From assembly GCA_016169945.1 (NCBI GenBank), contig JADLSH010000140.1, forward strand, positions 620,001 to 684,000: 64,000 nt of DNA, read 5' to 3'. The notes below the pieces were generated by a model, which was not told the DNA's origin, searched no databases, and saw only the letters and a program-made list of their open reading frames with translations. Made by a program: the position numbers and the translations under genes. This document shows positions 19,760 through 53,071 of the stretch, piece by piece (the first letter of the stretch is position 1; each line of letters opens with the position of its first letter). The DNA comes from Trachythela sp. YZ-2020 (Eukaryota > Cnidaria > Anthozoa > Malacalcyonacea > Clavulariidae).

Positions 19760-19967
19760 GCCAGATGGGACAGTGCTGCCACTCAATGGATTGAATATAA
19801 AGTTGATATTGTATATTCTTGTACAATCATATTTGGTATATGATGACAATACATAATATGTAATCTAAAAATAGCAATTCTATTGACACTTGCCTATTTA
19901 TATCCTTTTAGAATGAGTCTTTGGATTGACCAGAGTATAAATATTGGTTCTCTTCAGTCTTCACCTC

Positions 19968-20210
19968 AGTAGGTAACCCCCCCCCCCCCACAAAGGTACG
20001 GAAGTAATTAGTATTCAAACGAATGTATTTATGACGTCACATTTATTTCCAGCCATATGGCATCAACAGGGGGTGTGCGTGCAAGAGTTCGTACTTAGTG
20101 TGCGTGCAAGAGTTCGTACTTAGTATACGTCCAAGAGTTCGTACTTAGCGTGCGTACAAAGCGTTACGTCATGCCTATATTTTTTGCGTCATCGGTTGTG
20201 TGCGAGTAAT
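19968..20210 (+). repeat. left TIR of element 1
   Basis: Pairs with 24532-24772. Contains a C-run, the block TTTCCAGCCATATGGCATCAAC, and three 25-bp direct repeats (next entry), ending in GTCATGCCTATATTTTTTGCGT. Confidence 0.85.
20073..20150 (+). promoter_or_regulatory. triple GCAAGAGTTCGTACTTAG repeat (TIR copy)
   Basis: Three tandem ~25-bp units of GTGCGTGCAAGAGTTCGTACTTA, 130-210 bp upstream of the GRF gene start. The same motif lies in the right TIR and in the divergent promoter at 23171-23233, so it precedes every gene of the element. Confidence 0.65.
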
Positions 20211-20282
20211 CAGAGAGTATAGATTTGAGGGTTAAGTGAGATTTGTTATTCTGTTTACGACTTTCACGGAGAGGACTTCACT

Positions 20283-20855
20283 ATGAAATGTTTACATGGA
20301 GAACCTGCTTCTATAGCAACAACGAAGAATAGTTCGTTTTGGTTCTGTGGTCAAAACCCAAGTTGTAATTTCTTTTGCTCGGAAGACGAAGGTTACCAGT
20401 TTGAAAAAGCCATAGCTGCTTGGAGATCTACGAACTAGCCACAACCGCAATGCCACGGGCATCATAAACATGCAAGAATGCGTATCGTCAAAGATCTGAT
20501 GAAAAGAAGTTATGGAAGACCATTTTTCGTGTGTTCTAACAAGAAGAATCCGTGTTCCTTTTGGGTATGGGGTGATGTGAAGCCAATGATGAAACCACTT
20601 TGTCATCATGCGTTTTCGTGTGCATTGCGAAAGGTGAAGAAGGAAGGCATTAATAAGGATCGTATGTTCTTTACTTGTCCAAACGACAAGTACGAATCGT
20701 GTCGGTTTTTTGAATGGGCACCTGACGAATCAGACGTTGAACCTTTCCTTGACGTAGACTTTACCAAGCCACAATTAGATAGTTATGGCTGCATCAGAGA
20801 CAGCTATTTGGCAACTGAATTTATTAATGATTTTGCAAACAAGTTAGATCTGTAA
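20283..20855 (+). pseudogene. triple GRF-type zinc-finger protein with in-frame TAG
   Basis: GRF fingers bind single-stranded or structured DNA (as in NEIL3, APE2 and TOP3A). The frame from ATG 20283 to the TAA at 20853-20855 holds three Cys-His-Cys-Cys fingers: CLHG...FWFC...CNFF near residues 3-32; CHGHH...FFVC...CSFWVW after the stop; and CHHAF...MFFTC...CRFFEWAP. A single TAG at 20436-20438 (codon 52) interrupts it just before QPQCHGHH. Conserved coding on both sides of the stop means it is a recent nonsense mutation, or less likely programmed readthrough. A downstream ATG at 20478 could still make a two-finger protein of 125 residues. It is transcribed inward from the left TIR. Confidence 0.8.
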
Positions 20856-20945
20856 ATTATATAGTTTTGTTCGTGTTTATCACGTGTTTTGTAATTTTCG
20901 AGGAAAGCTTTGGTGGGATTTTGTAGCAGTTGTCTGGAAATTCTC

Positions 20946-21095
20946 TAAAGCTTCTGTGGAGCTTCTGTGGAGTTTCTGTGGAGTTTCTGTGAAGCTTCTG
21001 TGAAGCTTCTGTGAAGCTTCTGTAAAACTTCTGTGGAGCTTCTGTGGAGCTTCTGTGGAGCTTCTGTAAAACTTCTGTGGAGCTTCTGTGGAGCT
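20946..21095. repeat. 12-bp minisatellite
   Basis: About a dozen tandem units of AGCTTCTGTGGA with small variants. Downstream of the GRF gene, no coding role evident. Confidence 0.85.
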
Positions 21096-21179
21096 CTCAC
21101 AATAGGTTTGTGGGCATGCTTTAAAGATCATTAAATCTCCCCAACCATCGTTAGGATTTGTTTTGTGTATAAATAGTCG

Positions 21180-21465
21180 TGTATAGCAAAGAATTTTCTT
21201 ATTTTACATTAACATTCGTAAGACGAGCACTAAAATGAACAGTCTATGATTTCGTATTCGTATAACCCCCTTTATCTCCCCTTTGACGATAAACTTCATG
21301 CATAGCGGTCCCCGCAAATGTAGTGTAAAGTGAGCTGAAGCAAAATCACGCGCATATCACGTGCGTCTCGCGTACGATCTTAATTAGTGCTTAACCATTG
21401 CGTGCGACCTTTCTGTGCGACACCACACGGGGGCGGAAGGAAATTTAAAACAAATTTATTTATCG
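21180..21465. other. segment shared with element 4
   Basis: TTCGTATTCGT followed by a C-run and CTTTATC also occurs at about 52690-52720 in the third Polinton-ended element; the segment just after the gene remnant (ATTAACACATGGATTAACG at 21656) recurs at 50575. The two elements are therefore related outside their ends. Confidence 0.6.
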
Positions 21466-21467
21466 CC

Positions 21468-21560
21468 TTAAAGCAAAAGCTTGAACCTCGCCTCAAAGTT
21501 CATCAAGAGTCGTTTCATGATCTTTCCCAAAGTTTTTAAAATGTTCCGCTGCGTGCTCAA
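21468..21560 (-). pseudogene. partial copy of the 3' end of the helical zinc gene
   Basis: About 90 bp (CATGATCTTTCCCAAAGTTTTTAAAATGTTCCGC... on the + strand) matches the end of the gene at 22562-22996, around its HFKNFGKDHE coding part. A broken duplicate inside the same element. Confidence 0.65.
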
Positions 21561-21811
21561 AAGGGAGATAAAGGAGGCAACACGAAATCGTACTGATTTT
21601 AAGATCAGAGTATTGTTGCCAAAGCTACCGCGTTGGTTGACTGCATGTATCAATTAACACATGGATTAACGTTTTGTACACACGGTAGTTATATCGCACG
21701 CATAAACACAGATTAGTGTTTTAAACAATCTATTTCACACATAAACTAATGACAAATTTATGTTTTAAACAAATTATTTCTCAAAGCAGCAGCCTTACAT
21801 CAATAAACAAT

Positions 21812-22443
21812 AGATAGATAGATAGATAGAAATTTTATTTATACACGCTGACCCCGTCAACCGAAGCTGATTTCCACGAGGGGTGTGTGCCAAAAAAAAA
21901 TTTACAAAGTGTTATTCAGAGTTATTTACAAGATATATAAGTTTTAAAAGATATATAGAGTATCAAAATAGTTGGTAGACTATTTACAGGGTATATTATT
22001 TACAATACTTATTGTTCATAGACATAGATGTGAGCAGCGATTTTATTTCGAAAGGAAGAAAGTGATTTGCTTTCCCTAATTTCTTTTGGAATGGAGTTCC
22101 AAAGGTTTGCTCCGTCATACATGAAACTATTTTTCATATTATTAGTACGCGGTTTTGGTAAATAGAGACCACTTGAAATGTCCCGAAGGTGATATAGTTT
22201 GTTTTCTCACTTTTATATGAAAATAGATTTGTGAGTGATTTGGGGCCCATTTTATTTAATACTTTATATACCATTCTTGCTTTAGCCTTCTTCCTTTCTG
22301 GTTGGAGTGGTTCCCAACCCAATGCACGCAAAGCAATATAATGATCTACGTCATTGCTCATACTCAAGATAATTCTAGCAGCTCGATTTTGGAGTTTTTG
22401 AAGTCGTTTTGATTGTGTTTCACCAAACACATCCCATACTTCA
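21812..22443 (-). mobile_element. 3' end of a LINE, inserted in element 1
   Basis: Ends in a (TAGA)n tail at 21812-21832, then a 3' UTR (GCTGACCCCGTCAACCGAAGCTGATTTCC) clearly related to that of the LINE at 43.56 kb, then the last part of the reverse transcriptase ORF. 5'-truncated at about 22443 and inserted into element 1, so younger than it. Confidence 0.8.
22030..22435 (-). pseudogene. LINE reverse transcriptase C-terminus
   Basis: Shows KRLQKLQNRAARII and LGWEPLQPERKKAKARMVYK, then after a frameshift near 22190 LYLPKPRTNNMKNSFMYDGA and LWNSIPKEIRES, the standard CR1-type C-terminus. No catalytic motifs left. Confidence 0.8.
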
Positions 22444-22561
22444 CAGCAATGAATAAAAATGAATAAAAGCTAAACAATATATTAAACGTTTACACATAAA
22501 AGTGTCCCGCGCACAATGTCCTAAGTAATTTAGAGATCATTAATCCAATACGAAAGATCAT

Positions 22562-22996
22562 TCAAAATGTAGTAGTAAAGCCTGAATCCCGCCTCAAGTT
22601 CATCAAGAAATCAAGAGTCGCCTCATGATCTTTCCCAAAGTTTTTAAAATGTTCCGCCGCGTGCTCATGATACTCCAACCTCATCACACGAATAGCCTCA
22701 ATAAACTCTCGCCAAAGTATTCCCTGTTCGATCCCTCGCTTTAGAGCCTCCAAACCATACATTATCTGATTGTCCTCTTCTGATAACATAATGCATTCAT
22801 GTCTCCTCTGACTCGGATGATCAACTTCACAACCGCGGCACTTTTCTTTGCAAAGTTTCTTAATCTCGTAAGCAACAGCTTCTGCAAATATCGCATCCAT
22901 CAAATGACATAGATTCTTCACCTCTGACGAAGCGACCTCGTCCACATTTAAATTCATGGCCCAAAGCACTTGTTCCTCGTGACGAGAAAAACTCAT
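22562..22996 (-). CDS. helical zinc-motif protein, element 1 copy a
   Basis: An intact 144-residue frame from ATG at 22994-22996. The middle carries a probable zinc site, C-R-G-C-x3-H-P-S-Q-x2-H-x-C, flanked by predicted helices (AIFAEAVAYEIKKLC before; YGLEALKRGIEQGILWREFIEAIRVM after). It is homologous to the proteins at 23946-24474 and 26451-26840, by the shared pattern A-I-[FY]-A-x2-V-A-x-E-I...L-C and E-A-[LI]-x-R...W-x2-F-[IV]-E. Function unknown to me. It diverges from the gene at 23291 across a 295-bp spacer that holds the promoter-like repeat. No signal peptide or membrane segment. It is the only clearly intact gene in element 1. Confidence 0.7.
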   Translation of the reverse strand: MSFSRHEEQVLWAMNLNVDEVASSEVKNLCHLMDAIFAEAVAYEIKKLCKEKCRGCEVDHPSQRRHECIMLSEEDNQIMYGLEALKRGIEQGILWREFIEAIRVMRLEYHEHAAEHFKNFGKDHEATLDFLMNLRRDSGFTTTF

Positions 22997-23170
22997 AACT
23001 AAAGCCCTCTATATGTAAACAACAGTTGTTTCGATTCTCCCGAATTAGACTCTGTAACAAACTGTGCACGCAACATTCAGAAAAAATAAATAACACACGC
23101 TCAATACGTAATGCACGCACAATAAAGCGTACGCACGTCTTTGTTCGTACTAAACAATACGCACGGCTCT

Positions 23171-23233
23171 GTGCGTGCAAGAGTTCGTACACAACTGTTC
23201 GTACAAAACTGTTCGTGCAGAACTGTTCGTACG
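23171..23233. promoter_or_regulatory. shared GTTCGTAC motif in a divergent promoter
   Basis: GTGCGTGCAAGAGTTCGTAC followed by three further ACTGTTCGT(A/G)C copies. It sits between a minus gene (start 22996) and a plus gene (start 23291) and matches the triple repeats in both TIRs. Probably a bidirectional control element recognised by one factor. Confidence 0.65.
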
Positions 23234-23290
23234 ATGTTATTAACATTCAAATAAAAGTCGAATAAATCACATCATAATCAATCTGTCATC

Positions 23291-23813
23291 ATGCAGTGTA
23301 AAGCAGACATCGGTGGAATCATAGACATGGATGGGTTTCAAATTGGAAAGAAATTTTTCTGAAATGAGTTGGGTGTCATAAAAGTCGGAGACGTTGAAGC
23401 CTCATCGTTCTTTTTTTGACATCGGTATGAGTTGGAACGAGCTCAATGAGAAAGACAAGAAAACCTGCAGCTTTGTTCAAAGACGCATCCACAAGTTACC
23501 GTTTGGATTGCCGCGGGGCACCGAACTATTCCCTATTTCGGACTTGCAGGCAATGGTAGGGAATTTCTACCGTGAAATACGTATAGATTCAAACTCTACA
23601 ATTGCCTACAAAGGCGGACACTTCGAAAGGGATTTGTTGGCAAGTCTTCGTATTGCGGCCGTAAATTTGGAATGCTACGGTTGTCCTAAAGCCGAAAAAC
23701 TATTTGATCAACTGATCTGGTTAGAAACCTGCGGGAATCATTTGGAAAGCAACGCTTATCAACATTGCGCAAAAGTTGAAGTCGAAGCCTTTGCGATGTG
23801 GCTGCAGCAGTAA
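23291..23813 (+). pseudogene. conserved IDMDGF / ERDLL protein, possibly nuclease-fold
   Basis: Two frames hold one ~170-residue protein: ATG 23291 begins with CKADIGGIIDMDGFQIGKKF; a TGA at 23360-23362 follows; the frame continues NELGVIKVGDVEASSFFF and shifts in a T7 run near 23410, resuming FFDIGMSWNELN, IHKLPFGLPRGTELF, AYKGGHFERDLLASL, CYGCPKAEKLFD, LETCGNH and the C-terminal KVEVEAFAMWLQQ. The acidic IDMDGF and E-R-D blocks recall DnaQ-like/RNase-H-fold exonucleases, a guess from motifs only. Broken by one nonsense codon and one homopolymer frameshift. A histone-type stem-loop lies 15 nt after the stop. Confidence 0.65.
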
Positions 23814-23828
23814 AGACAAACACAAAAC

Positions 23829-23844
23829 GGTTCTTTTAAGAACC
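23829..23844 (+). terminator. histone-type 3' stem-loop
   Basis: GGTTCTTTTAAGAACC fits the consensus GGYYYTTYTNARRRCC of replication-dependent histone mRNAs: a 6-bp stem and 4-nt loop. It is preceded by AAAAC and followed by an A-rich, purine-rich stretch, 15 nt after the stop of the + gene. An AATAAA also lies at 23863. Only the + orientation fits the consensus. Confidence 0.55.
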
Positions 23845-23945
23845 AACATATTTACAAAAAGAATAAAAACGAAACTTCGCTTACTAACATATTTACACTG
23901 AATCATTCAATCTTAAAGTTTACTTCTCAAATATTCCACATATGC

Positions 23946-24474
23946 CTAATAATGAACCTCTTCATGACTTCTAACTTGCTCGCCTGTCGCCCTCACAGTA
24001 TACTTAAAGCTAGGGGGCATCGAGAAAAAGACCGTAGTCCCTGACTCGTGTGGGTCATCACGACCTAAATCCTCTTTCCAGTTAGAAAGTTGGACTAAAA
24101 CACTCAGCATCTCACTGTTCCCCACACTCATCATTGATTTGACAAACATAGGGTCCCTCCTCATTTGATTCCAATATTCAAACACGTATTTATCCCACTG
24201 AAGCTCTAAAACTTTCGTCACCTCAACAAACTTATTCCATACCATGTCTTTATTATTAACTCGCTCTATGGCTTCCAAATCATACATCTGCCATCTCTCC
24301 TCATACGATAACATAAGACACTCACTCTGACTAAAACGATTTAGTTTACAACCACAACACCTCTCTTCGAAAAGCTCATAAATCTCGCAAGAAACAGTTT
24401 GTGCAAATATTGTCCCTAACAAATTGCACAGCTTCGGAAAGCTGTATTAGAAATATTGCCCTTGAAGAACGCAT
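23946..24474 (-). pseudogene. helical zinc-motif protein, element 1 copy b
   Basis: A 158-residue open frame (24422-23946) related to the gene at 22562: GTIFAQTVSCEIYELF, a C-C-G-C...C-L-M zinc-like site in which HPSQ has become RFSQ and the second His is Ser, then YDLEAIERVNNKDMVWNKFVEV. It has a longer C-terminus (to VRSHEEVHY). No ATG stands at the start of this frame; the likely start (ATG near 24474) is in another frame, so a 1-nt indel near 24435 breaks the N-terminus. It reads inward from the right TIR. Confidence 0.6.
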
Positions 24475-24531
24475 ATTTTGTTGGGAAAAAAGCATTTTAA
24501 AATAAACGTTACCTACCCCTATTCATTTAGT

Positions 24532-24772
24532 TTGTATACTCGCATTCAACCAATTACGCAAAAAATATAGGCATGACGTAACGCTTTGTACGCACGCTAA
24601 GTACGAACTCTTGGACGTACACTAAGTACGAACTCTTGCACGCACACTAAGTACGAACTCTTGCACGCACACCCCTGTTGATGCCATATGGCTGGAAATA
24701 AATGTGACGTCATACATACATTCGTTTGAATACTAATTACTTCCGTACCTATATGGGGGGGGGTTACCTACT
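24532..24772 (-). repeat. right TIR of element 1
   Basis: Reverse complement of 19968-20210 with a few differences. Contains the three TAAGTACGAACTCTTG repeats at about 24590-24673 and a G-run next to the terminus. Confidence 0.85.
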
Positions 24773-24778
24773 CACCTC

Positions 24779-25469: not shown

Positions 25470-25710
25470 TAGGTCTTTAGTATGGAGCGGGGCTTAATGG
25501 ACCCAGTTTTATGCGTAAAATTTAACGAGTTACCCTGCATAATTTATGAGTTAATTATGTTAATGATCTGAATTAATTAATTCATTTCCGAGGATAATCC
25601 GAACAAATCCGAGTATGAGATATGCATATTAATGAGCATTTATAATTAGATTCATTCCGACGACGTTAAAACAACGAGAGGTTTCCGACAGTTCGCCATT
25701 TTGTTCCAAG

Positions 25711-26094
25711 ATGGCAGAACAGCTAATTCTGGATGTTTTTAAGGAAAATAATGTAGAATTAACGCAGGATACTTTACGGTTTTATATAAAACTGCTTTTA
25801 GAAAAGCATGAACATACATATAACTCCATGATATGTAGTATTGTAAGAGATAATGTGTTTGAAAATTTATGTCAAACATATGAAGAGACTAAGCCTTTAA
25901 ATTCTGGTAGAATTATGGCTTACTTGGCTTTAGTTTACAAAGTGAGCGATTTTTGTGACACTGAAACAGTGCGAGAAGCCGTTCGAATATGTGTAGACGA
26001 TTTAAAACAATTTGATTTAGCGAGCTATGAAATTAAACTGTCTTGGTTTCAACGCTTAATTTCATGGTTAGTGTTACAGCTTAACCGCGTGTAA
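25711..26094 (+). CDS. Bcl-2-like protein, left-arm copy
   Basis: 127 residues from the ATG in CCAAGATGGCAG. The sequence resembles the core of Bcl-2 family apoptosis regulators: a BH3-like LLEKHEHTYNSM, then VFENLCQTYEE and a BH1-like LNSGRIMAYLAL (compare N-W-G-R-I-V-A-F in cellular members, with the key G-R kept), helices with DTETVREAVRICVDDL, and a BH2-like SWFQRLISWLV. No clear C-terminal membrane anchor. Such proteins block or promote mitochondrial cell death; viral and adintovirus genomes are known to carry them. The assignment rests on motif reading only. First gene inside the left end, 235 bp from the terminus. The C-terminus differs from the mirror copy by a 2-nt indel. Confidence 0.5.
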   Translation: MAEQLILDVFKENNVELTQDTLRFYIKLLLEKHEHTYNSMICSIVRDNVFENLCQTYEETKPLNSGRIMAYLALVYKVSDFCDTETVREAVRICVDDLKQFDLASYEIKLSWFQRLISWLVLQLNRV

Positions 26095-26166
26095 TTTGAA
26101 TATCACTAATTGGAATTGAATAGCGAAAGTCGTTAAGAAGTCATTAACTGTTGTACATGGGTGAAC

Positions 26167-26265
26167 ACATTGTACTTTAACGACATTGCCCAAACCATTA
26201 ATTTTCCTCATTGACTTTAAATTGCTTAAGCAGGACAGAAAGACTGAACACATTGTACTTTAACG
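26167..26265 (+). promoter_or_regulatory. direct repeat CATTGTACTTTAACGACA upstream of helical gene
   Basis: GAACACATTGTACTTTAACGACA occurs twice, at about 26163 and 26246, each followed by GCCCAA; a related TTTGTACTTTAA sits 20 bp before the ATG at 26451. Mirrored at about 30410-30525. Probably promoter elements of the second gene. Confidence 0.45.
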
Positions 26266-26450
26266 ACAGTGCCCAAGCTTGATTTTGCTGAGCTTGTACA
26301 AAAAGGTTGTTAACGACTGGACTAGCCTGATCTTGTAGTTCTCTACACGGCGAAGTAGGGAGCACACATAGATAGCACAAATTGAAAACTTTCGCTTTGG
26401 AGCAACGACGTAAACTTTTGAAAACATTTTTGTACTTTAAAAAAAAAAAT

Positions 26451-26840
26451 ATGTTGCAAGATGATATTTACATTGTTGACGAAAGTCGATTATGTCGGAA
26501 CCCCCTCAAATTGTTGGAAGCAATTTACGCTGATACAGTTGCAAATGAAATTACGCAGTTGTGCCAGGAAAACGAATGTAATATAGACGAAGGATGGCAG
26601 ACGTACGGTATAGAAGCTATAGAACGTGTTAATAGCAAGCATTTGGTTTGGGACTCGTTTGTCGAGGCTGCAAGAATACTGAAAATCAATTGCCACGAAA
26701 ACGTCCTTGAGCGTTTAAGAGAATTAAAAAAGGCACCAGAACACATGTTCGTTTACGACTTGGAAGAATCGTATCACTGTAGAAAGAGCCACCAATTTCA
26801 ATGCATCCTAAATTATTTATCTTTTTGGAGGGAAAAGTAA
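26451..26840 (+). CDS. helical protein related to element 1 proteins, left-arm copy
   Basis: 129 residues from ATG 26451, after an A-rich tract. Shares with 22562-22996 and 23946-24474 the pattern LEAIYADTVANEITQLC and YGIEAIERVNSKHLVWDSFVEAARIL, but the central Cys/His zinc site is mostly gone (only CQENECNIDEG remains). It converges with the C2HC gene at 27153. Function unknown; predicted soluble and alpha-helical. Its mirror copy is identical in the part I compared. Confidence 0.65.
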   Translation: MLQDDIYIVDESRLCRNPLKLLEAIYADTVANEITQLCQENECNIDEGWQTYGIEAIERVNSKHLVWDSFVEAARILKINCHENVLERLRELKKAPEHMFVYDLEESYHCRKSHQFQCILNYLSFWREK

Positions 26841-27152
26841 ACAAGTCAAGGATATCGAATGCTCATATCCGTACGTGGTCAGGCAATATTTCTATAGTAA
26901 AAAGTAGTTGACGTGTTATTATAATTATAAAGAGGTTAAGGCGATAAACTTTTAATTCCACCTTTGGGATAACTTTACTTTACATTAAAAGCTATACGTA
27001 AAGCATACTGTAACTAAACATTCAGTTATATTACGTGTGCATGCGCAATTGAAAATAGAGAAAATATACGTCTTGTGTACAATTTTATTAAAATATTATT
27101 ACACTTCGCATAGAGTATATTATATCTGTTTATATAATGTAGTTGAGGAAGT

Positions 27153-27734
27153 CTAGTCTGAATCAGTATTTTCGCCCTCTTCAATATAAGCATTGTCTTT
27201 TAAAAGACGTTTCAGAAGAAACTTTCTTTTATCAACGGCTGCTTCCAAAGCCTCATCATGATCAAAGTCGTCACTGTTTATAAACACATCTCTCGTGTTC
27301 ATTACTTTTTTATGTACATGATTCCTCCTAAGCTGTCTCATCCACAATAGACGTTCCAGATAAACACTTTCGAGCTCTTTTTGTAGTTTAGGTAATATCA
27401 ACGCGTACGCTTGCTTGTTGGAAGTTTCGTCATCAAGACCGTTTTCGATAAGATTCTGTTTTATTTCTTCGTACTCGCTGGCATATCTTTGTTTTGCTTC
27501 CTCTATTAATGGTTTCCAAGGATCACTTTCATCTTCTAATTCAGATCCTGATTCATTTCCATCTACCTCAGAATTTTGTGCATTATCACTATTTGACGCT
27601 TCGTCATCTGACTCCATGGGTACGGCATTGTGATCTGTATCCGACTCTTCCTCTCGGAATAGGCAGTATTCGTTTTCGTGTCTGCGCAAATTAAAGCGAC
27701 GATTAAAAGATTTACCACAAAACTTGCAGCTCAT
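27153..27734 (-). CDS. C2HC-finger acidic protein, left-arm copy
   Basis: 193 residues from the ATG at 27732-27734. One N-terminal finger: C3, C6, H19, C24 (CKFCGKSFNRRFNLRRHENE), a basic patch, then a strongly acidic Ser/Asp/Glu stretch (about residues 27-70), then a conserved helical part with SDPWKPLIEEAKQRYASEY, VYLERLLWMRQLRRNHVHKK and DHDEALEAAVDKRKFLLKRL. The layout (one finger plus acidic tract) suggests a nucleic-acid-binding or chromatin/transcription factor; the family is a multi-copy cnidarian one with no function known to me. It begins next to the palindrome centre. Confidence 0.7.
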   Translation of the reverse strand: MSCKFCGKSFNRRFNLRRHENEYCLFREEESDTDHNAVPMESDDEASNSDNAQNSEVDGNESGSELEDESDPWKPLIEEAKQRYASEYEEIKQNLIENGLDDETSNKQAYALILPKLQKELESVYLERLLWMRQLRRNHVHKKVMNTRDVFINSDDFDHDEALEAAVDKRKFLLKRLLKDNAYIEEGENTDSD

Positions 27735-27915
27735 CACTCTAGCACTGTTAGTAGCAAATGAGGGATTTTAAGAAAATTATTGCCTCATGAGCACTTGCTC
27801 TGTTGTATAGCTCATGAATGAGCGTTGACGTAGACAAGCTCACGACGACCACTCATAATTACTCATACCCCATGAGCACTCTGAAATGCTCATTTTCGTT
27901 GAGCAGAGATAAAAG

Positions 27916-28017
27916 ATGGCCCGAGCAAGACGAAAACATGATCCATTAATTGACTTAATTATACGAAAATACAATCTCTCAAGATGCGACTATAGCGAAA
28001 TCAACTTGCGGATATAA
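27916..28017 (+). other. short frame starting MARARRKHD at the palindrome centre
   Basis: A 33-codon frame (MARARRKHDPLIDLIIRKYN..., stop 28015-28017) begins in the last 25 bp of the left arm. The same start (ATG plus basic MARARRKH) is present on the minus strand at 28533 and 28791, each running into different sequence. It may be the N-terminus of a lost gene whose body was replaced when the palindrome formed. Too short to call a gene. Confidence 0.35.
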
Positions 28018-28766
28018 GTAATGTTCTATTTAATACTTGTAATGTTGCATACATCTCTCACCAATAACTTCTATATTATTCTTCTATACATTATTTTCGT
28101 TCAGCTTGGGCCACTACTCATATATGCTCAACGTAAATGAACATTGTAAGCCCAGTATTTTTATGAGTTCTGTATGAATAAGTTCAATAACATATCGTGA
28201 GCGTAGTTCAATTCAGCCGTGCTCAATCGATCCCTTCCGAGCGAGCCAAAAAGCAGTTAATGTAAAGTCAACAGGGTTGATTGGCAATACAAAGCAATAC
28301 CGCAAAGCGAAAATCATTTTACGACCAAGAGTTGAGAACAGGCCTAGTTTCAGGTTAATCTATTTGGTGTCTTCTAAAAAGACCGCTTGGTTTTTGAGCC
28401 TATACTATCCGTAGCAGACATGAATATCCTTTCTGTCTAATCTAGTATGCGGCTAAGTGGGGTGTTGAACAGACATAAGGACCAAGTCACTCAAAGTCAG
28501 TAATGGATCATGTTTTCGTCTTGCTCGGGCCATCTATTATGTCTGCTCAACGAAAATGAGCATTTCAGAGTGCTCGTAAGGCATGAGTAATCATGAGTGG
28601 TCGTCGTGAGCTTGTCCACAAAAGTGTTGAAAATACTATATCTTCGTACTTTTCAACTCGGCTTCCAGCAGCCAGCAGTCGTTTGGAGCATTGTTGGCAA
28701 AGTAGATAGGGCATGAAAATTCTTACAGGTCTGGTAGCCAGTCTGAATGAGTTAAGGGACATCTGG
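27941..28766. other. centre (loop) of the palindrome
   Basis: 826 bp without a clear gene. 28501-28619 is a further inverted copy of the arm end at 27835-27953, so the centre holds a nested, older generation of the repeat. Confidence 0.7.
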
Positions 28767-28956
28767 CATGTTTTCGTCTTGCTCGGGCCATCTTTTATCT
28801 CTGCTCAACGAGTGCTCATGGGGTATGAGTAATTATGAGTGGTCGTCGTGAGCTTGTCTACGTCAACGCTCATTCATGAGCTATACAACAGAGCAAGCGC
28901 TCATGAGGCAATAATTTTCTTAAAATCCCTCATTTGCTACTAACAGTGCTAGAGTG

Positions 28957-29538
28957 ATGAGCTGCAAGTTTTGTGGTAAATCTTTTAATCGTCGCTTTAA
29001 TTTGCGCAGACACGAAAACGAATACTGCCCATTCCGAGAGGAAGAGTCGGATACAGATCACAATTCCGTACCCATGGAGTCAGATGACGAAGCGTCAAAT
29101 AGTGATAATGCACAAAATTCTGAGGTAGATGGAAATGAATCAGGATCTGAATTAGAAGATGAAAGTGATCCTTGGAAACCATTAATAGAGGAAGCAAAAC
29201 AAAGATATGCCAGCGAGTACGAAGAAATAAAACAGAATCTTATCGAAAACGGTCTTGATGACGAAACTTCCAACAAGCAAGCGTACGCGTTGATATTACC
29301 TAAACTACAAAAAGAGCTCGAAAGTGTTTATTTGGAACGTCTATTGTGGATGAGACAGCTTAGGAGGAATCATGTACATAAAAAAGTAATGAACACGAGA
29401 GATGTGTTTATAAACAGTGACGACTTTGATCATGATGAGGCTTTGGAAGCAGCCGTTGATAAAAGAAAGTTTCTTCTGAAACGTCTTTTAAAAGACAATG
29501 CTTATATTGAAGAGGGCGAAAATACTGATTCAGACTAG
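28957..29538 (+). CDS. C2HC-finger acidic protein, right-arm copy
   Basis: Mirror of 27153-27734, 193 residues from ATG 28957. Differs at very few residues (EYCPF against EYCLF; HNSVP against HNAVP). An AATAAA lies at about 29601, 60 bp after the stop. Both copies open, which argues for recent duplication or gene conversion between arms. Confidence 0.7.
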   Translation: MSCKFCGKSFNRRFNLRRHENEYCPFREEESDTDHNSVPMESDDEASNSDNAQNSEVDGNESGSELEDESDPWKPLIEEAKQRYASEYEEIKQNLIENGLDDETSNKQAYALILPKLQKELESVYLERLLWMRQLRRNHVHKKVMNTRDVFINSDDFDHDEALEAAVDKRKFLLKRLLKDNAYIEEGENTDSD

Positions 29539-29850
29539 ACTTCCTCAACTACATTATATAAACAGATATAATATACTCTATGCGAAGTGTAATAATATTT
29601 TAATAAAATTGTACACAAGACGTATATTTTCTCTATTTTCAATTGCGCATGCACACGTAATATAACTGAATGTTTAGTTACAGTATGCTTTACGTATAAC
29701 TTTTAATGTAAAGTAAAGTTATCCCAAAGGTGGAATTAAAAGTTTATCGCCTTAACCTCTTTATAATTATAATAACACGTCAACTACTTTTTACTATAGA
29801 AATATTGCCTGACCACGTACGGATATGAGCATTCGATATCCTTGACTTGT

Positions 29851-30240
29851 TTACTTTTCCCTCCAAAAAGATAAATAATTTAGGATGCATTGAAATTGGT
29901 GGCTCTTTCTACAGTGATACGATTCTTCCAAGTCGTAAACGAACATGTGTTCTGGTGCCTTTTTTAATTCTCTTAAACGCTCAAGGACGTTTTCGTGGCA
30001 ATTGATTTTCAGTATTCTTGCAGCCTCGACAAACGAGTCCCAAACCAAATGCTTGCTATTAACACGTTCTATAGCTTCTATACCGTACGTCTGCCATCCT
30101 TCGTCTATATTACATTCGTTTTCCTGGCACAACTGCGTAATTTCATTTGCAACTGTATCAGCGTAAATTGCTTCCAACAATTTGAGGGGGTTCCGACATA
30201 ATCGACTTTCGTCAACAATGTAAATATCATCTTGCAACAT
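29851..30240 (-). CDS. helical protein, right-arm copy
   Basis: Mirror of 26451-26840; 129 residues, the same protein. The upstream region differs slightly in the T/A-rich tract and in ACAACTTCGACGATTTTACGTCG against the left arm, so the arms are not base-identical. Confidence 0.65.
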   Translation of the reverse strand: MLQDDIYIVDESRLCRNPLKLLEAIYADTVANEITQLCQENECNIDEGWQTYGIEAIERVNSKHLVWDSFVEAARILKINCHENVLERLRELKKAPEHMFVYDLEESYHCRKSHQFQCILNYLSFWREK

Positions 30241-30583
30241 ATTTTTTTTTAAAGTACAACTTCGACGATTTTACGTCGTTGCTCCAAAGCGAAAGTTTTC
30301 AATTTGTGCTATCTATGTGTGCTCCCTACTTCGCCGTGTAGAGAACTACAAGATCAGGCTAGTCCAGTCGTTAACAACCTTTTGTACAAGCTCAGCAAAA
30401 TCAAGCTTGGGCACTGTCGTTAAAGTACAATGTGTTCAGTCTTTCTGTCCTGCTTAAGCAATTTAAAGTCAATGAGGAAAATTAATGGTTTGGGCAATGT
30501 CGTTAAAGTACAATGTGTTCACCCATGTACAACAGTTAATGACTTCTTAACGACTTTCGCTATTCAATTCCAATTAGTGATAT

Positions 30584-30970
30584 TCAAATTACACGCGGTT
30601 GCTGTAACACTAACCATGAAATTAAGCGTTGAAACCAAGACAGTTTAATTTCATAGCTCGCTAAATCAAATTGTTTTAAATCGTCTACACATATTCGAAC
30701 GGCTTCTCGCACTGTTTCAGTGTCACAAAAATCGCTCACTTTGTAAACTAAAGCCAAGTAAGCCATAATTCTACCAGAATTTAAAGGCTTAGTCTCTTCA
30801 TATGTTTGACATAAATTTTCAAACACATTATCTCTTACAATACTACATATCATGGAGTTATATGTATGTTCATGCTTTTCTAAAAGCAGTTTTATATAAA
30901 ACCGTAAAGTATCCTGCGTTAATTCTACATTATTTTCCTTAAAAACATCCAGAATTAGCTGTTCTGCCAT
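30584..30970 (-). CDS. Bcl-2-like protein, right-arm copy
   Basis: Mirror of 25711-26094, 128 residues. The body is identical to the left copy as far as I compared; the end reads LVLQQPRVI instead of LVLQLNRV because of a 2-nt indel before the stop. The same BH1-like NSGRI and BH2-like SWFQRLISW motifs. Confidence 0.5.
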   Translation of the reverse strand: MAEQLILDVFKENNVELTQDTLRFYIKLLLEKHEHTYNSMICSIVRDNVFENLCQTYEETKPLNSGRIMAYLALVYKVSDFCDTETVREAVRICVDDLKQFDLASYEIKLSWFQRLISWLVLQQPRVI

Positions 30971-31211
30971 CTTGGAACAAAATGGCGAACTGTCGGAAAC
31001 CTCTCGTTGTTTTAACGTCGTCGGAATGAATCTAATTATAAATGCTCATTAATATGCATAACTCATACTCGGATTTGTTCGGATTATCCTCGGAAATGAA
31101 TTAATTAATTCAGATCATTAACATAATTAACTCATGAATTATGCAGGGTAACTCGTTAAATTTTACGCATAAAACTGGGTCCATTAAGCCCCGCTCCATA
31201 CTACTTAGGTC

Positions 31212-38289: not shown

Positions 38290-38600
38290 GAGTCAGCCGT
38301 ACAGCAGATCATTTTGTTATCAAGTGGAGATTCATTAATACCGCCATAAGAAGGAGTCGAAGAAAGATGCTTGATTATATTGTCATTTCATGGGTCATAT
38401 GTGGCATTTGATTATGACGCAAGCAAACATTGAACAAAGACACTTGTTACGTCTTATACACCTATATAATTTTGAATATGTTGTCATATACTTGCCAAAC
38501 CACACAAATAGTTCTTGCTATAGCACCCAGGAATGGTTGACATGATTTTACAATATAATATTTACTTCACGCATGTTTATGCAATAGCCAACATCCCAAC
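38290..38600 (+). repeat. repeat unit A, second copy
   Basis: GTACAGCAGATCAT, GAGTCGAAGAAAGATGCT and CACCTATATAATTTTGAATATG match 4085-4263 plus 13952-14095 and 49180-49470. It lacks the 9.7-kb insertion and the 14.1-kb MITE. Just upstream, GGAGGAAACCGAAG...GGAGAAAACCCACG is a phrase seen in dispersed repeats of many marine invertebrates. Confidence 0.75.
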
Positions 38601-40842: not shown

Positions 40843-41010
40843 TTTACAGCCGTAAACGAGCTCTGGAAGTTGTCAATATTTACAGCCGTAAACTAGCTCT
40901 GGAAGTTGCTAATATTTATACAGTCGTATTAAAACTCTGCAAGTTGTTAATAATTACAGCCGTAAATTCTGTACGTTAATAACACTCTGGAAGTGGTTAA
41001 TATTTACAGA
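40843..41010 (+). repeat. ~35-bp minisatellite within unit B
   Basis: Units like TTACAGCCGTAAACTAGCTCTGGAAGTTG followed by (T)NAATATT, about five copies. The same array occurs at about 54118-54285 and 54850-55030. Confidence 0.8.
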
Positions 41011-43555: not shown

Positions 43556-45115
43556 CTAAGGTAGGTAGGTAAGGTAGGTAAAACTTTATTTTACTACGCT
43601 AACCCCAACAGCGAAAGCTGATTTCCAAGGGGGGCGTAGCATTAAATTTACATTAAAAATTTAGAAAAGTTAAACATACAAATACAATTACTTACATGCA
43701 GTTATTACAATTACATACATAATTAGATAGATAATAGTACATACAGTACATACATACATACATAATAGTAAATATTAATAGATTAAATAGTCAAGGTAAA
43801 TATGGGTTTAAAAACTCTAATTAGTAGCCAGGTGTCATACGTTTTTATTGAATATAGCTAGTGATTCTTTTCCTCTTAATTCATTTGGGAGACTATTCCA
43901 CAATTTGGCCCCTCTATAGCTAAGACTTTTTTTAAGATATTCAGTCTTAGGCTTGGGCAAATGGAGTTTAGTGGAAGAGCCCCGCAAATTATAATACTGG
44001 GAGGAAGACGTCTTTTGAAAAATATCAGTAAGTCGTAAGGGCGCTAGATCATGAGTAATTTTATACATAAGACTTGCCACAAACTGGGTTCTGCGTTCGC
44101 TCAGAGGCTTCCAGTTTAATTCATTTAGAGCAAGTTCAGATTGACCATGTTCATTTTACGACCCATGATAGCTCTAGCAGCCCTATTTTGTAATTTCTGG
44201 AGACGATCAGAAAGTGTGGTACCAATGGTATCCCAAACTTCGCAACAATAATCAAGGTGAGGCAAAACAAGTGCATTATAGGCACAAATTAATGTATTAC
44301 GGTCTACACATGATTTTAACTTTCTGATTGCCCCAATTCCGGATGAAACTTTTTTGGCAATTTTATCAATATGCTTTTCCCATGATAGAAATTCATCAAT
44401 ATAGACTCCAAGTGCCTTTGTTTCTCTTACCCTTTTAATTGGTATGTCACCAACAAATACCTTTGGGGTAGCCAATATATTATTAATATTATGCCGTGAT
44501 CCAATTAGTATGTACTCAGTTTTAACGAGATTTAAAGATAGTTTATTTGCACAGAGCCACTGATTAACGTTTGAAAGATCGTGATTGATGGCAACTTCTA
44601 CATCATGAAGAGATTTACCAGATACAGTTAACGTTGTATCGTCGGCAAACATTCTTGATGACGAGTGTTCAAGACTTGTAGGCAGATCGTTTATATAAAT
44701 TAGAAACAGGAGTGGCCCAAGAATTGAACCTTGGGGGATCCCACAAGTAACTAGATTTTTTCTAGACAATACGCCGTTCACAGTACACATTTGAAATCTG
44801 TTTTCTAAGTATGATCCTAAAAGATTTAGGGCAGGTTTTTGTAGACCATAAAGGTCAAGTTTCTTAATCAATATATTATGATTTATAGTATCAAATGCTT
44901 TCTGCAAGTCAAGAAATACTGCAATATTGAATTGACCACGGTCCATATTAATGAACCATTCGTTAGTACTGTCCAAAAGGGCAGAAGCTGTAGAATGGAA
45001 CTGCCTAAAACCAAATTGATTTTGAGACAACAAATTATTAACAGCAAAATAATCATATAGTTGGCTATATAGAACTTTTTCAAAAACTTTACTTACTATA
45101 GGCAGAATGCGATGC
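43556..45115 (-). mobile_element. CR1-like LINE, 5'-truncated
   Basis: Minus-strand LINE. The 3' end is a (TAGG)n-type tail at 43556-43580, then a 3' UTR related to the fragment at 21.8 kb, then reverse transcriptase. The 5' truncation is near 45115, inside the RT fingers. Confidence 0.85.
43835..45115 (-). pseudogene. reverse transcriptase of the 43.6-kb LINE
   Basis: Starts inside the protein at RILPIVSKVFEKVLYSQL, then LSQNQFGFRQFHSTASALL, LDLQKAFDTINHNILIKKL (first catalytic Asp), CGIPQGSILGPLLFLIYIND, the catalytic FADD box (44652-44641) and the thumb with HLDYCCEVW and RLQKLQNRAARAI. A frameshift near 44125 precedes the C-terminus: SLMYKITHDLAPLRL and LWNSLPNELRGKESL, ending at 43835. 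Endonuclease missing. One frameshift only, so relatively young. Confidence 0.88.
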
Positions 45116-46568
45116 GATGCCGAGTCCTCCTTAACTAGCTAGATCTTTAGTATTATCCAGCATGCAATTATGATTATCTCAGCGTTATATATCCGAATCA
45201 TTTGCTTTTCTTTCTTGTTATAATGCCGCTGCGGCTATTTAGTTGCGTAGTACTAACTTTATACGTATTTGAGCTGACATATTTCTTTGTCCATGAGACT
45301 GGGAATTAATAGATGCCAGTGCTTGCTTCGGGTTCCACTTAAGTTCTGTTTGACTATAGACTGCGTCGTCGCTCGTCATAGTGCCCGTTGTTCTGTATAC
45401 ACGATAATATGTCCATGCCAAAAACACTATACTGACGATTTGCAGCATTAGATCGCGCACGGCCACCGCATCATATATATATATTATCTGAAATCGCCTT
45501 AGTCTCGTCCCTCCGAAAACAATTTGGACAATCGGTAAATTTTCACCATGAATGGCCATGGGCTGCCCGTATAAAAGCATGCCCAATGATTAAAATAATA
45601 AAACTCATTTAAAGATGCGTTCTTTGAGGCCTGGAAGGAATCGCTGTTTTGAAACAGATCACTTATCTAAAGTCTTGCTTAGCATACTAGCTTAGCATAA
45701 ATCTATATCATAAAGCCATTGTTCCCTTTTTTTAAATATTTTGAACAAGAGGAACTTTTACTTCCGGGGGGCGGTCGTGAAATAGTTAACTGAGGGTGGA
45801 GGCCAACTTGGAGCTTCCCTTCAGTTTATATGAAAAAAGGCATTGCTTTGTACCGTTTCTATATGTACCAACCATTGTTTTATTATATATGTTATGTTGC
45901 ATATACAGTTATATATGTACTTAATTGATTAATATTATGAGGCGCCGTTATATTAGTTATGTTGGAAAAGCATTAAATACTGTAACATGCCGCGTTATGT
46001 CCATACGTTGTTAAAGCAAGTCATACACGGTGGAAATTGCGGAAACAGCCGATGAACCCTATCTTTATACTTTCTCTGTTCGGTTTCGTTTGCTCCTTCT
46101 TGAAAAATGAGATCATCAGAACAGTTCCGACCACTTATGTGACTGTGTCTGTTCCATTCCATGCATTAAATTAGTATTCCGAATATCCGGAGTGTTTTTA
46201 ACAGAAGTGAAATTAAGCAGCCTGTTCTTCAAAGATGCGGTAGTTGGAACAGTTCAGAATAGTCATGCGATCGTATGCTGCTCTAGTTCATTAGTGTTCG
46301 GAAAACCTGGAGTATTTTAAAACAGTAAATAGAGCCGCCTGTAGATGTACAAACTTTTCATGTGTTATGGGTTATGACTGCATGATATTTGCTATCTATT
46401 GTCGTTGTATTATTGCTTCATAACTAGATTAATCGGTTCGTTAGCAGCGTCCAACCATGGGTTTGCGAGTGGAAAACTAAGAAATATTGTGTTTCTTTTT
46501 AATATATTGAATTTGTGACTGCGTTTTCAACTAGAATTTCACCTTAAAACCGTTTCTGTTAAATTTAG
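45116..46568. other. intron before LRR exon 2, no gene
   Basis: Nothing coding supported. Contains the diverged copy (45740-45800) of the G-rich repeat at 37.6 kb. Confidence 0.5.
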
Positions 46569-48640: not shown

Positions 48641-48999
48641 TCAAGTATAAGCAATGCATTTTCTTTATTGCGCATGCACAATTTTTTTAATGTGTACATG
48701 AAATTCTCCTTATGTCTTCCAATTTTGTTTCTACCTTTACTTATCCCAAGCACACTTATTCAAACACAATATACATGAATGCTGCAAGAACTGCGTGAAT
48801 TTTAAATCGATAAAAGAAATATTGAACTAAATAGTAATGAACGGATACACTGTAAGATAACAAAGATTGTGCGTTAGGATGCATTGCGACCAAACGGATT
48901 AATAGGCAAGTGGCATGAGGAAGTAATCTAGTTTAACCGGTTAAGACCACGACAGTTTCACCTTGACAAGAAAGATCATCTGCAAATAGAGCGCTGTGT
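48641..48999. other. no gene seen
   Basis: AT-rich spacer before repeat unit A. Confidence 0.4.
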
Positions 49000-49640
49000 T
49001 GCTCAATGAGTTACAATGACCCATGAATGTACAATGGCATATAATGCGTGACAATCTCTTGCATGCATTAAGGAGCAATATAATTCAACAGAGCAAATTG
49101 GATAATTTTTAAGCTTAATAGCGACATAGCGTTATAAAGCTTAATACGCTCTGCTTCATTATTTTCGTCAGTCGTACAGCAGATCATATTTTTTATCAAG
49201 GGAAGATTCATTAATATTGCCATAAAAAAGAAGAAAAATGCTGGATTAATTTCGAATTTCATGGGTCATATATGGCATTTGATTATGATGCAAGCAAACA
49301 TTGAACTAACACATCTGTTACTTGCAATATTAGGTATTGATACACCTATATAATTTTGAATATGTTGTAATATACTTGCTAAAGCACAGAAATAGTTCTT
49401 GCTATAGCACTCAGGAGCTGTTGACATGATTTTACAAAATAATATATACTTCAGATATGTTTATGCAATGACAGCTTTCCTGCAACATAAATTGTAATTT
49501 CCTAACTACCGCTGATTTCTCGCGGGCTGGCATGCTTGATGACTCTTATATGAGCTTTTTCATTTTGGGACCCCTATTTATAAACAGGATACCGGAAGCG
49601 GAGTAGTCCAGTTCCAAAATATAGATTTTGAGGTATAGAA
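49000..49640 (+). repeat. repeat unit A, third copy (uninterrupted)
   Basis: Corresponds to 3940-4263 joined to 13952-14470. Provides the empty site of the 9.7-kb element (GCAATATTAGGTATTGATACACC at about 49325) and lacks the 14.1-kb MITE. Confidence 0.8.
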
Positions 49641-49724
49641 TATTAGTGTAGATTCATGCTGAGTTGGTGTCCTCGTTGCTGCAAGCACATTTACACCAAA
49701 GCAGTTTAGAAGATCTTCAGAGGT

Positions 49725-49982
49725 GTTAGGTTATGCTCATAGGAGAATTGTTGGTAGATGGAATACTCGAACGGAAATTTATATACATTTTTATAGATCT
49801 AGCCAGGAGCAGTTGCGAAAAATGCAACTTAGGCCCTGTGGCAGGAATTGAACCTACGGTCCTGCGATTCCGGTGCAGCGCTCTAACCAACTGAGCTACA
49901 GAATCCAGTTGTTCGGCATTAAGCGCAAGTTCGGTATATAAGATGTGAGTGATGTCAGTATGTGGTATATGGGTAAATATGA
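49725..49982 (-). mobile_element. tRNA-derived SINE
   Basis: Minus strand. A pol III box A, TAGCTCAGTTGG, lies at 49898-49887 and a box B, GGTTCAATTCC, at 49854-49844, with tRNA-like spacing and a D-arm GTTAGAGC. The acceptor ends do not pair and the anticodon loop is imperfect, so it is a SINE head rather than a tRNA gene. The tail follows toward 49725. Confidence 0.65.
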
Positions 49983-50161
49983 AGATTTTTCTCGGCATCT
50001 CGTTCGATAGGATTAATAGTAGAAGGTGTATTACATGGAATGCTTGTACGAAAATTTATATACATTTTTATAAAAAGGTATATAAATTTCAGTTCGAATA
50101 TTCCATCTACTACCACCTTCTCTTATTAATCCTATCGAACGAGATGCCGAGAAAAATCTAT
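49983..50161. repeat. 179-bp hairpin element
   Basis: AGATTTTTCTCGGCATCTCG and its reverse complement close a long palindrome; inner arms include GATAGGATTAATAGTAGAAGGTG and ATATACATTTTTATA. The loop side resembles the SINE tail (GGAATACTCGAACGGAAATTTATA on one strand), so it probably arose from an inverted duplication of that tail. Confidence 0.65.
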
Positions 50162-50841
50162 GCTCATAGTGTAGATTTACACTGAGTTGAAGTCCATCTT
50201 GCCACAATCTCATTGACCTGAGGCTGAGTAGGTGTCAGTTGGGTAAAAGTGGGGCTTTTTGCGACGGGTGGAGCGGGTGGAGCGCCTTGCTCCACCCATG
50301 AGGTCATTCAGTGAGATTTTTCCCGCCATATTACGTCATCAGGGTGTGAGCACGGTGTGCGTACGTTGTGCGCACCATGTGCGTACTTAAGGTATTTATA
50401 TAATGTTATATTTGTAGGCTTATAAACGTTGATTTTCAAATATTGATGATTATAGTTCTCATAGCTTTCAAAGGAAGGATAAAAGGGGTTTTGATGAATA
50501 CGAATATGTATGCATTTTTCAGGCAAAACATTGAAGCGCGTCTAGTAATTAGCGCCATTTGACTGAAAGCATTAATTAACACACGGATTAACGTTTTAAA
50601 CAATTTATTTATAAAGTATAACAATTTTACACAAATAAACAGTTCCTAAACATATTGTCCAGGTTTTACGTTATTTTCTAGCTGCGATCGTTTGACTTTG
50701 TAAACTGTTCATCCTCTGTAAGCAGGAGTTTACATTTTGTCCCTTATGTTCCACCGACTTAACGTCCATGCAGGATTTTACACGCTTTACGTTTCTTGTT
50801 CGCAGGCTACAGCGGTACATTTTCGTAGTTCAGTACACCAA

Positions 50842-51129
50842 TTAAAATGTTAACCATTTATTTTTGTCTTTCTTTGTTTCCCAAGAGTTAGAATGTTTTC
50901 GTTTACTGGGCTGCCCATACTTTAATTTGGCCGCTCGTAAGTAAACATTAAATTTCCTTTCCATCTCTTCCTGCTGCTTTAACAAATAGGGGTTCCCTTG
51001 GGGTACCCTCGGGTTTCCCTGGGTGTTCCCTCGGGGTTTCCTTGGCGTTCCCTGGGGTTGCCTAGGGTTTCTGTAGGGGTTCTCTCGAGTTTCTCTCGGG
51101 TTTTTCTCGCGCCTTCGTATTTTTCTCAC
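50842..51129 (-). pseudogene. remnant reading frame with KRKHSNS tail (left arm)
   Basis: The minus frame has an Asn-Pro-Arg-rich low-complexity half (from the G-rich minisatellite) followed by LLKQQEEMERKFNVYLRAAK and QPSKRKHSNSWET. The mirror at 52325-52433 on + reads LKRQEEMERKFNVYLRGAK ... KRKHSNSGET then a stop. Conserved wording in both arms suggests the end of an old basic protein; function unknown. Confidence 0.4.
50990..51115 (-). repeat. GGGGTTCCCTC minisatellite (left arm)
   Basis: About ten 10-12-bp units such as GGGGTTCCCTC/CGGGTTTCCCT; the mirror array is at 52208-52300. G-rich on the + strand here. Confidence 0.8.
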
Positions 51130-52207
51130 GCGTCTTCGGAAAACGTTCGCATTTTTCTCATGCCTCTTCGCATTTAGTTCGCCTTTTTCTCATGCGTCTT
51201 CGCATTAAGTTCGCCTTTTGCTCATGCGTCTTCGCATTTAGTTTGCATTTTTCTCATCCGTCTTCTCATTTAGTTCGCATTTTGCTCATGCATCTTCGTA
51301 TTTTGCTCATGCCTCTTCGCATGAAGGCCCTTTGTGGCTCGATGGCCCGGAATATCTCAGCCTAGCTGACACTTAGTCTTAAGTTCGCATTCAGTTCAAG
51401 TGTCTTCGCATTAAGGTCTTTGTGGTCGTATGCGCCCTCGCATTTTGCTTAATTCACATTTATCCATTTTTCTTCGCATTCTTCGCATTAAGGTCCTTTG
51501 TGTCCCGGAAGCCCGATTGATTCCTATAGGATGCAAGGGTTGCTAATCAATCGGGCATCCGGGACACAAAGGGCCTTAATGCGAAGAATGCGAAGCAAAA
51601 TGCGAAAAATGCGAAGCAAAATGCGAAGGCGCATAGGGCCACAAAGGCCTTAATGCGAAGACACTTGAACAGAATGCGAACTTAAGGCTAAGTGTCAGCT
51701 AGGCTGAGATATTCCGGGCCATCGAGCCGCAAAAGGCCTTAATGCGAAGACGCATGAGAAAAATGCGAAAATGCATGAGCAAAATGCGAACTAAATGCGA
51801 AGATGCATGAGCAAAATGCGAACTTAATTTAATGCGAAGACGCATGAGAAAAATGCGAAGGCGCATTGGGCCACAAAGGCCTTAATGCGAAGACGCATGA
51901 AGAGAATGCGAACTTAAGACTAAGTGTCAGCTAGGCTGAGATATGCCGGGCAATCGAGCCACAAAAGGCCTTAATGCGAAGACGCATGAGAAAAATGCGA
52001 AGATGCATGAGCAAAATGGGAACTAAATGCCTTGAAGATGCATGAGAAAAATGCGAAGACGCATGAGAAAAGTGCGAACTAAATGCGAAGACGCATGAGC
52101 AACATGCGAACTTAATGCGAAGACGCATGAGAAAACGGCGAACTAAATGCGAAGACGGATGAGAAAAATGCGAACTTAATGCGAAGACGCATGAGAAAAA
52201 TACGAAG
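51116..52207. repeat. ATGCGAAGACGCATGAG satellite, both arms
   Basis: Dozens of ~20-30-bp units around ATGCGAAGACGCATGAGAAAA (reverse complement in the left arm). Each unit contains the small palindrome GCGAAGACGC/GCGTCTTCGC. Blocks AAGTGTCAGCTAGGCTGAGATAT and GCAATCGAGCCACAAA recur three times. Open frames across it are low complexity and not real genes. Confidence 0.85.
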
Positions 52208-53071
52208 GCGGGAGAGAAACCCGAGAGAACCCCTGCAGAACCTCGAGCGAACCCCGAGGAAACCCCGAGGGAACCCCAAGGTAACCCCGAGGGAACCCCT
52301 ATAATTAGAAAGTTTGGAAAATTTATTGAAGCGGCAGGAAGAGATGGAAAGAAAATTTAATGTTTACTTACGAGGCGCCAAATTAAAGCATGCACAGCCC
52401 AGTAAACGAAAACATTCTAACTCTGGGGAAACATAGAAAGACAAAAATAAATGGTTAACATTTTAATTGGTGTACTGGATTAACAGTTTACAAAGTCAAA
52501 CGATCGAGGCTAGAAAATAACGTAAAACCAGGACAATATGTTTAAGAACTGTTTATTTGTGTAGAATTGTTATACTTTATAAATAACTTGTTTAAAACGT
52601 TAATCTGTGTGTTAATTAATGCTTCCAGTCAAACGGCACTAATTACTAGACGCGTTTCAATGTTTTACCTTAAAAATGCATACATTTTCGTATTCGTCAA
52701 CCCCCCTTTATCCTTCCTTTGAAAGCCATGAAAACTGTGATCATCAATATTTGAAAATCAACGTTTATAAGCCTACAAATATAACATTATATAAATACCT
52801 TAAGTACGCACATGGTGCGCACACCGTACGCACACCCTGATAACGTCATATGGCGGGAAAAATCTCACTGAATGACGTCATGGTTGGAGCAAGAAGCTCC
52901 ACCCGCTCCACCCGTCGCAAAAGTCCCACTTTTACCCTACTGGTGTCCACACAGACACATCTGCGCAGTGAGAAAGGGGTATGTAAGGTCGGTTTTATTG
53001 ACTACGCCGGATTATTATTACAACGCGATAAAAAAACATATACGTAAAGTTTATTCGTTTCCTGAGACTAT

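Follow-up and report, generated by a model that had tools for sequence, protein, structure and literature searches.

Three small elements in a 64,000-nucleotide stretch of DNA from the anthozoan Trachythela sp. YZ-2020 (contig JADLSH010000140.1, positions 620,001 to 684,000; hereafter the window) are probably core-less, non-autonomous derivatives of Maverick/Polinton elements of the adintovirus type, integrated in trans by the integrase of a full-length relative. Adintoviruses are the Eupolintoviridae in the taxonomy. The elements are named E1, E2 and E3, and all coordinates are those of the window.

Boundaries, inverted repeats and ends

An initial annotation of the window had delimited three elements with 6-base-pair (bp) duplications. 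Both the coordinates and the duplications proved exact for each element, as listed below.

19968..24772: E1, 4,805 bp; duplication CACCTC; inverted repeats of about 241 bp; ends AGTAGG
25476..31205: E2, 5,730 bp, a near-whole palindrome; duplication TAGGTC; right end (AGT)2, left end TTTAGT
50237..52941: E3, 2,705 bp, largely palindromic; duplication GGTGTC; ends AGTTGG (left) and AGTAGG (right)

Exact 6-bp direct repeats flank all three elements. The flanks beyond these repeats differ, and therefore the repeats are target-site duplications. The chance of an exact 6-mer match at the spacing of each element was 0.0004-0.0007 (200,000 random placements per element). The left copies of the duplications (19962-19967, 25470-25475 and 50231-50236) all end in TC, which is perhaps a weak target preference.

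The long inverted repeats reported for the elements were also recovered, with lengths of about 241 bp in E1, 2.4 kilobases (kb) in E2 and at least 478 bp in E3. Those of E1 are 94.6% identical, with 9 mismatches in 240 aligned positions. Alignment of the E2 arms covers 2,433 bp, in which there are 13 mismatches and 6 gap breaks (98.4% identity with gaps counted). In E3 the outer 478 bp are 91% identical, 31 of the 467 bases aligned there being mismatched, and the identity further inward is 83%. A sequencing artefact was considered for the E2 palindrome and is unlikely, as the flanks differ, the arms carry 13 differences and the duplication is intact.

AGT starts five of the six ends. The description of all ends as AGT-type therefore holds except at the left end of E2, and the exact Maverick motif (AGT)2 is found at one end only, the right end of E2. 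The window was scanned for AGT...ACT ends 1-30 kb apart that have an exact 6-bp duplication and agree in no fewer than 9 of 14 end bases. There were 8 such pairs, compared with a null mean of 6.1. At a threshold of at least 11 of 14, 4 pairs were obtained against a null mean of 0.38, namely E1 (14), E3 (13), a pair within the E3 palindrome (13) and one unrelated pair (11). E2 is absent from this result because its left end reads TTTAGT.

A common subterminal block was observed in E1 and E3, about 75-108 bp inward from each end. The best local scores of the block were 22 and 25, compared with null means of 8.7 and 8.6, and 0 of 500 shuffles reached either score. A 26-base degenerate motif, written from the four places of the block in E1 and E3, has 4 matches in the window at up to 3 mismatches, all of them at these places, with 0 expected. 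The short sequence ATGACGTCA adjoins the block at both E1 ends and at the right E3 end, and one further copy lies at 8074. E1 and both E3 arms also have a 24-bp internal motif in common (3 matches in the window, 0 expected). The positions are as follows.

19968..20208, plus strand: E1 left inverted repeat, with ATGACGTCA at 20031-20039 and the subterminal motif at 20046-20071
24537..24772, minus strand: E1 right inverted repeat, with ATGACGTCA at 24705-24713 and the subterminal motif at 24673-24698
50319..50344, plus strand: E3 left subterminal motif common to E1
52835..52860, minus strand: E3 right subterminal motif common to E1
21652..21675, plus strand: 24-bp internal motif, E1 copy
50574..50597, plus strand: 24-bp internal motif, E3 copy, with its mirror at 52594-52617 on the minus strand

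No likeness was found between the E2 termini and those of E1 and E3, the scores being reached by 244, 199 and 109 of 500 shuffles. Judged by sequence, E1-E3 are of two end-types, one comprising E1 and E3 and the other E2, and E2 is tied to E1 by a homologous gene (see below). The three elements had been described as one family. This description has to be corrected: E1 and E3 have subterminal DNA in common, and E2 has only a homologous helical gene in common with E1, so that the set is made up of two end-types and not of one family.

Genes carried by the elements

E1 is not palindromic. Its 241-bp repeats surround four genes, and a fragment resembling a long interspersed nuclear element (LINE) is also present.

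20283..20855, plus strand: GRF zinc-finger gene (PF06839, 3.4e-18 on 20439-20852), one in-frame stop
22061..22450, minus strand: LINE-like fragment, no Pfam match of its own
22562..22996, minus strand: helical Cys-rich protein, open, 144 amino acids (aa)
23427..23813, plus strand: open frame with Cys and His residues, 128 aa, no family found
23946..24446, minus strand: second helical Cys-rich protein, broken copy

The GRF finger noted earlier as E1 cargo is firmly identified by its Pfam match. A finger upstream of the in-frame stop was seen by eye, and no Pfam match was obtained there. The LINE-like fragment is 57% alike to 43860-44249, a region overlapping the end of a LINE reverse transcriptase open reading frame (ORF). 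The second helical gene has a frame break near its start and an early stop near its end, and its five longest relatives are 186-208 aa in length. At 21476-21559, an 84% leftover copy of the 3' part (22577-22667) of one of the helical genes was found, and this sequence suggests that the helical gene was duplicated within E1.

In E2, arms of 2.4 kb surround a centre of less than 1 kb, and each arm contains three open genes.

25711..26094, plus strand: left-arm Bcl-2-like protein, 127 aa
26451..26840, plus strand: left-arm helical protein, 129 aa, homologous to the E1 proteins
27153..27734, minus strand: left-arm C2H2-finger protein, 193 aa
27941..28766: centre between the arms, no ORF of at least 80 aa wholly inside
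28957..29538, plus strand: right-arm C2H2-finger protein, 193 aa
29851..30240, minus strand: right-arm helical protein, with the same sequence as the left-arm one
30584..30970, minus strand: right-arm Bcl-2-like protein, 128 aa

Over the parts compared, the left and right copies differ by 2 residues for the Bcl-2-like protein, 0 for the helical protein and 2 for the C2H2-finger protein. The two Bcl-2-like copies end differently at the C-terminus. A further inverted copy of the inner end of the arm (28494-28619) is contained in the centre. E3 is also largely palindromic, with arms more diverged than those of E2, and is rich in tandem repeats.

The ORFs of the three elements were compared with Pfam. 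For E1, all 9 ORFs of at least 80 aa were used (two of them for most of their length). For E3, 3 of the 4 ORFs wholly inside were used and one was left out. For E2, 3 of 11 ORFs and one short centre ORF were used; the remaining ORFs were 3 mirror copies of those given and 5 overlapping out-of-frame ORFs, which were left out together with short fragments. No integrase, PolB, ATPase, protease or capsid match was obtained among these ORFs, in agreement with the initial annotation, which had listed no Polinton core gene. No recognised gene was found in the three E3 ORFs. Hence the cargo previously attributed to the elements is present as accessory-type cargo in E1 and E2, and no recognised cargo was seen in E3.

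The Bcl-2-like call for the protein at 25711-26094 was upheld by comparison of its predicted structure, which supports a Bcl-2 fold, though its score against PF00452 was 17 bits, below the gathering cut-off of 31.4. Two of 10 members of the family match PF00452 at an E-value of 0.05. The model has weak structural matches to Bcl-2-type proteins of adenoviruses and herpesviruses (E 0.34 and 0.87).

The E2 helical protein (26451-26840) is homologous to both E1 copies, with E-values of 1e-14 and 1e-17 in single comparisons and identities of 31% and 33%. At codon positions 1, 2 and 3, the E1 and E2 genes have 47, 31 and 70 differences in one comparison and 40, 29 and 61 in the other. The E1 helical family was found in two protein clusters, of 45 and 39 members. 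The model of the helical protein (mean predicted local distance difference test score, pLDDT, of 67.4) gave a best E-value of 3.1 against viral models, from which nothing was concluded. The only match below 0.001 in PHROGs was that of the E2 helical protein (6.1e-4), to an entry of unknown function, and NCBIfam gave no match at 0.1 for five cargo proteins.

Proposed origin and comparison with known systems

E1-E3 resemble Mavericks, Polintons and adintoviruses in their 6-bp duplications, AGT-type ends (five of six), long inverted repeats and accessory regions of the kind found beside the core. For vertebrate Mavericks, the excerpted text of PMC8097293 gives AGT twice as the commonest end, 6-bp duplications in intact copies, an intact length of 12.7-24.6 kb and inverted repeats of 46-1,447 bp. 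It also states that in most of these elements the core is flanked on either side by accessory regions, and core-less derivatives are therefore the simplest reading of E1-E3. The differences are the size of the elements (4.8, 5.7 and 2.7 kb), the lack of a core gene in the ORFs compared, and the length of the E2 arms, which exceeds the range reported for vertebrate elements.

According to this proposal, the core middle with the polymerase, integrase, ATPase and capsid genes would have been lost, with the terminal repeats kept in all three elements and accessory genes retained in E1 and E2. E1 would consist of one end, accessory genes and the other end. E1 and E3 would have one ancestral end-type, that of E2 being a different one. 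The 6-bp duplications would be the work of an integrase provided in trans by a full-length relative.

E2, and perhaps E3, would have arisen before integration, when a linear genome had one of its ends duplicated in mirror image. Miscopying of a protein-primed linear genome could yield a molecule with the same end twice and every gene doubled. Such a molecule would keep an origin and an integrase site at both tips, so that its copying and insertion by the enzymes of a full relative would be possible. In the symmetric defective genomes of adenoviruses, one end replaces the other in mirror image and the core is lost. E2 resembles these genomes in having the same end region at both ends in mirror image; it differs in being a chromosomal insertion with a target duplication, whereas the adenovirus forms are virion DNA.

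A plainer route to E2 has to be considered. According to PMC12220804, the inverted repeats of protist Polinton-like viruses can be hundreds to thousands of bp long, and lengths of up to 8 kb were accepted in finding them. Plain deletion in a parent whose 2.4-kb repeats bear genes could thus also give E2, which is one of several points that weigh against the origin proposed here. The broken genes of E1 indicate that this element may be only a relic. The ends of E1 and E3 are AGTAGG or AGTTGG and not (AGT)2. DNA scans of viral and prokaryotic contigs, in collections from which the window's own genome was possibly excluded, confirmed no relative and hence showed no link between the cargo genes and a Maverick core. 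For the Bcl-2-like protein, all Foldseek E-values of the model were above 0.1, and a sequence profile of the family matched no Bcl-2 chain in the PDB; we think that the structure comparison outweighs the negative profile result. The 6-bp duplications, taken as a Polinton hallmark in the initial annotation, are present at all three elements and are not diagnostic alone, since the IS3EU-like element at 55876-63400 has one as well.

If full Mavericks had been inserted at these sites and their middles deleted later in place, no movement in trans would be needed. The broken GRF gene, broken helical gene and LINE-like fragment of E1 are consistent with such decay, as are the Maverick copies fragmented by accumulated deletions in a midge survey (excerpted in PMC8504770), and E2 could be a parent with gene-sized inverted repeats minus its middle. 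However, the E2 palindrome is clean: the arms are mismatched at 0.5% of their positions, and the genes of both are open. A simple deletion leaves two different gene-bearing ends unless the parent already had inverted repeats of this kind. E3 too is largely palindromic, and the 45- and 39-member clusters of the E1 helical family would suggest amplified families. We consider decay in place unlikely.

The shared duplication length raises the question of whether E1-E3 belong, as non-autonomous forms, to another superfamily of DNA transposons with 6-bp duplications. Such a transposon is present in the same window.

55876..63400: IS3EU-like element, ends TACGGTGG..CCACCGTA (TACGG..CCGTA, TA..TA), duplication ATAAAC
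56295..57194: its integrase-core ORF (PF24764, 3.1e-27)

IS3EU elements have 6-bp duplications and mostly TA..TA ends, as given in the excerpts of PMC10045372. IS3EU and GingerRoot elements are like E1-E3 in this duplication, and no Maverick gene was found in the ORFs of E1-E3 either. However, the ends of E1-E3 are AGT..ACT and lack the TA..TA termini, and the IS3EU-like element has an integrase-core gene, none being found in the E1-E3 ORFs given. The Bcl-2-fold cargo, a protein kind borne by adenoviruses and herpesviruses (the weak matches above), also argues against another superfamily. Membership of one is likewise unlikely.

True satellites would be stable small elements that use Maverick enzymes and capsids to lead a life of their own, and in which selection maintains the Bcl-2-like, helical and finger proteins. 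The six open gene copies of E2 and the presence of the helical family in both end-types, in clusters of up to 45 members, are in line with this. However, third codon positions are only slightly over-represented among the differences that separate the helical genes of E1 from that of E2, and we regard true satellites as very unlikely. It is doubtful, too, that E1-E3 belong to a Maverick satellite lineage, a germ-line-fixed class of defective-interfering or satellite type in which small elements, palindromic or short and without replication and capsid genes, are integrated in trans by Maverick enzymes and kept as carriers of anti-death (Bcl-2-like) and DNA-binding genes, doubled in E2.

Dependent or cargo-bearing relatives of Polintons have been proposed or described before. 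Tetrahymena Tlr elements were once proposed as non-autonomous Polinton derivatives, and they have their own capsid protein and diverged anciently from Polintons, according to the excerpts of PMC4028283. As far as these excerpts go, the likeness to E1-E3 is the idea of Polinton relatives depending on others, and the difference is the capsid protein, no capsid gene being found in E1-E3. Nematode Mavericks bear cargo genes (Widen, as told in part of PMC10680173). They are similar to E1-E3 in having non-core cargo genes on Maverick-type DNA, and differ in the integrase, polymerase and capsid genes described there. The feature that merits further study is the E2 palindrome, in which genes including a Bcl-2-like one are doubled. 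Among the papers listed by literature searches (Polinton/Maverick/adintovirus, non-autonomous, Bcl-2, cnidarian; Repbase, which may have entries for non-autonomous Polintons, lay outside the search), none was noticed that describes the set as one system.

If these ends also occur on a resident Maverick, the elements would show that Maverick integrase acts in trans on short substrates and that protein-primed Mavericks give rise to defective palindromes, which then enter the germ line. In that case, palindromes of the E2 type would be fossil evidence of linear, virus-like Maverick replication, the case for which is otherwise based chiefly on gene content. The doubling of a Bcl-2-like gene on a passenger element also raises the question of who would benefit from blocked cell death.

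Other features of the window

On the strand opposite to its integrase-core ORF, the IS3EU-like element has a 674-aa ORF that appears HECT-like by eye; neither Pfam (at E 1) nor the PDB (at E 0.01) gave a match for it. The region 10995-12621 has ORFs that adjoin and overlap one another in more than one frame. One of them matches DUF7869 (4.5e-10), and together they are probably the remains of a mobile-element or host gene. At three places there are ORFs for LINE reverse transcriptases (RVT_1), which in some cases are split between frames and which point to a eukaryotic host.

286..1164, minus strand: LINE reverse transcriptase ORF
34228..36245, minus strand: LINE reverse transcriptase ORF
44128..45138, minus strand: LINE reverse transcriptase ORF

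A transfer RNA-like match (Rfam RF00005, 36.9 bits) at 49839-49900 on the minus strand is perhaps the head of a short interspersed nuclear element. Dispersed repeats at 13952-14105, 38453-38592 and 49327-49479 are 87-89% alike and common to both flanking regions. Tandem arrays at 40842-40966, 54116-54240 and 54850-54928 have a similar 36-bp unit in all three.

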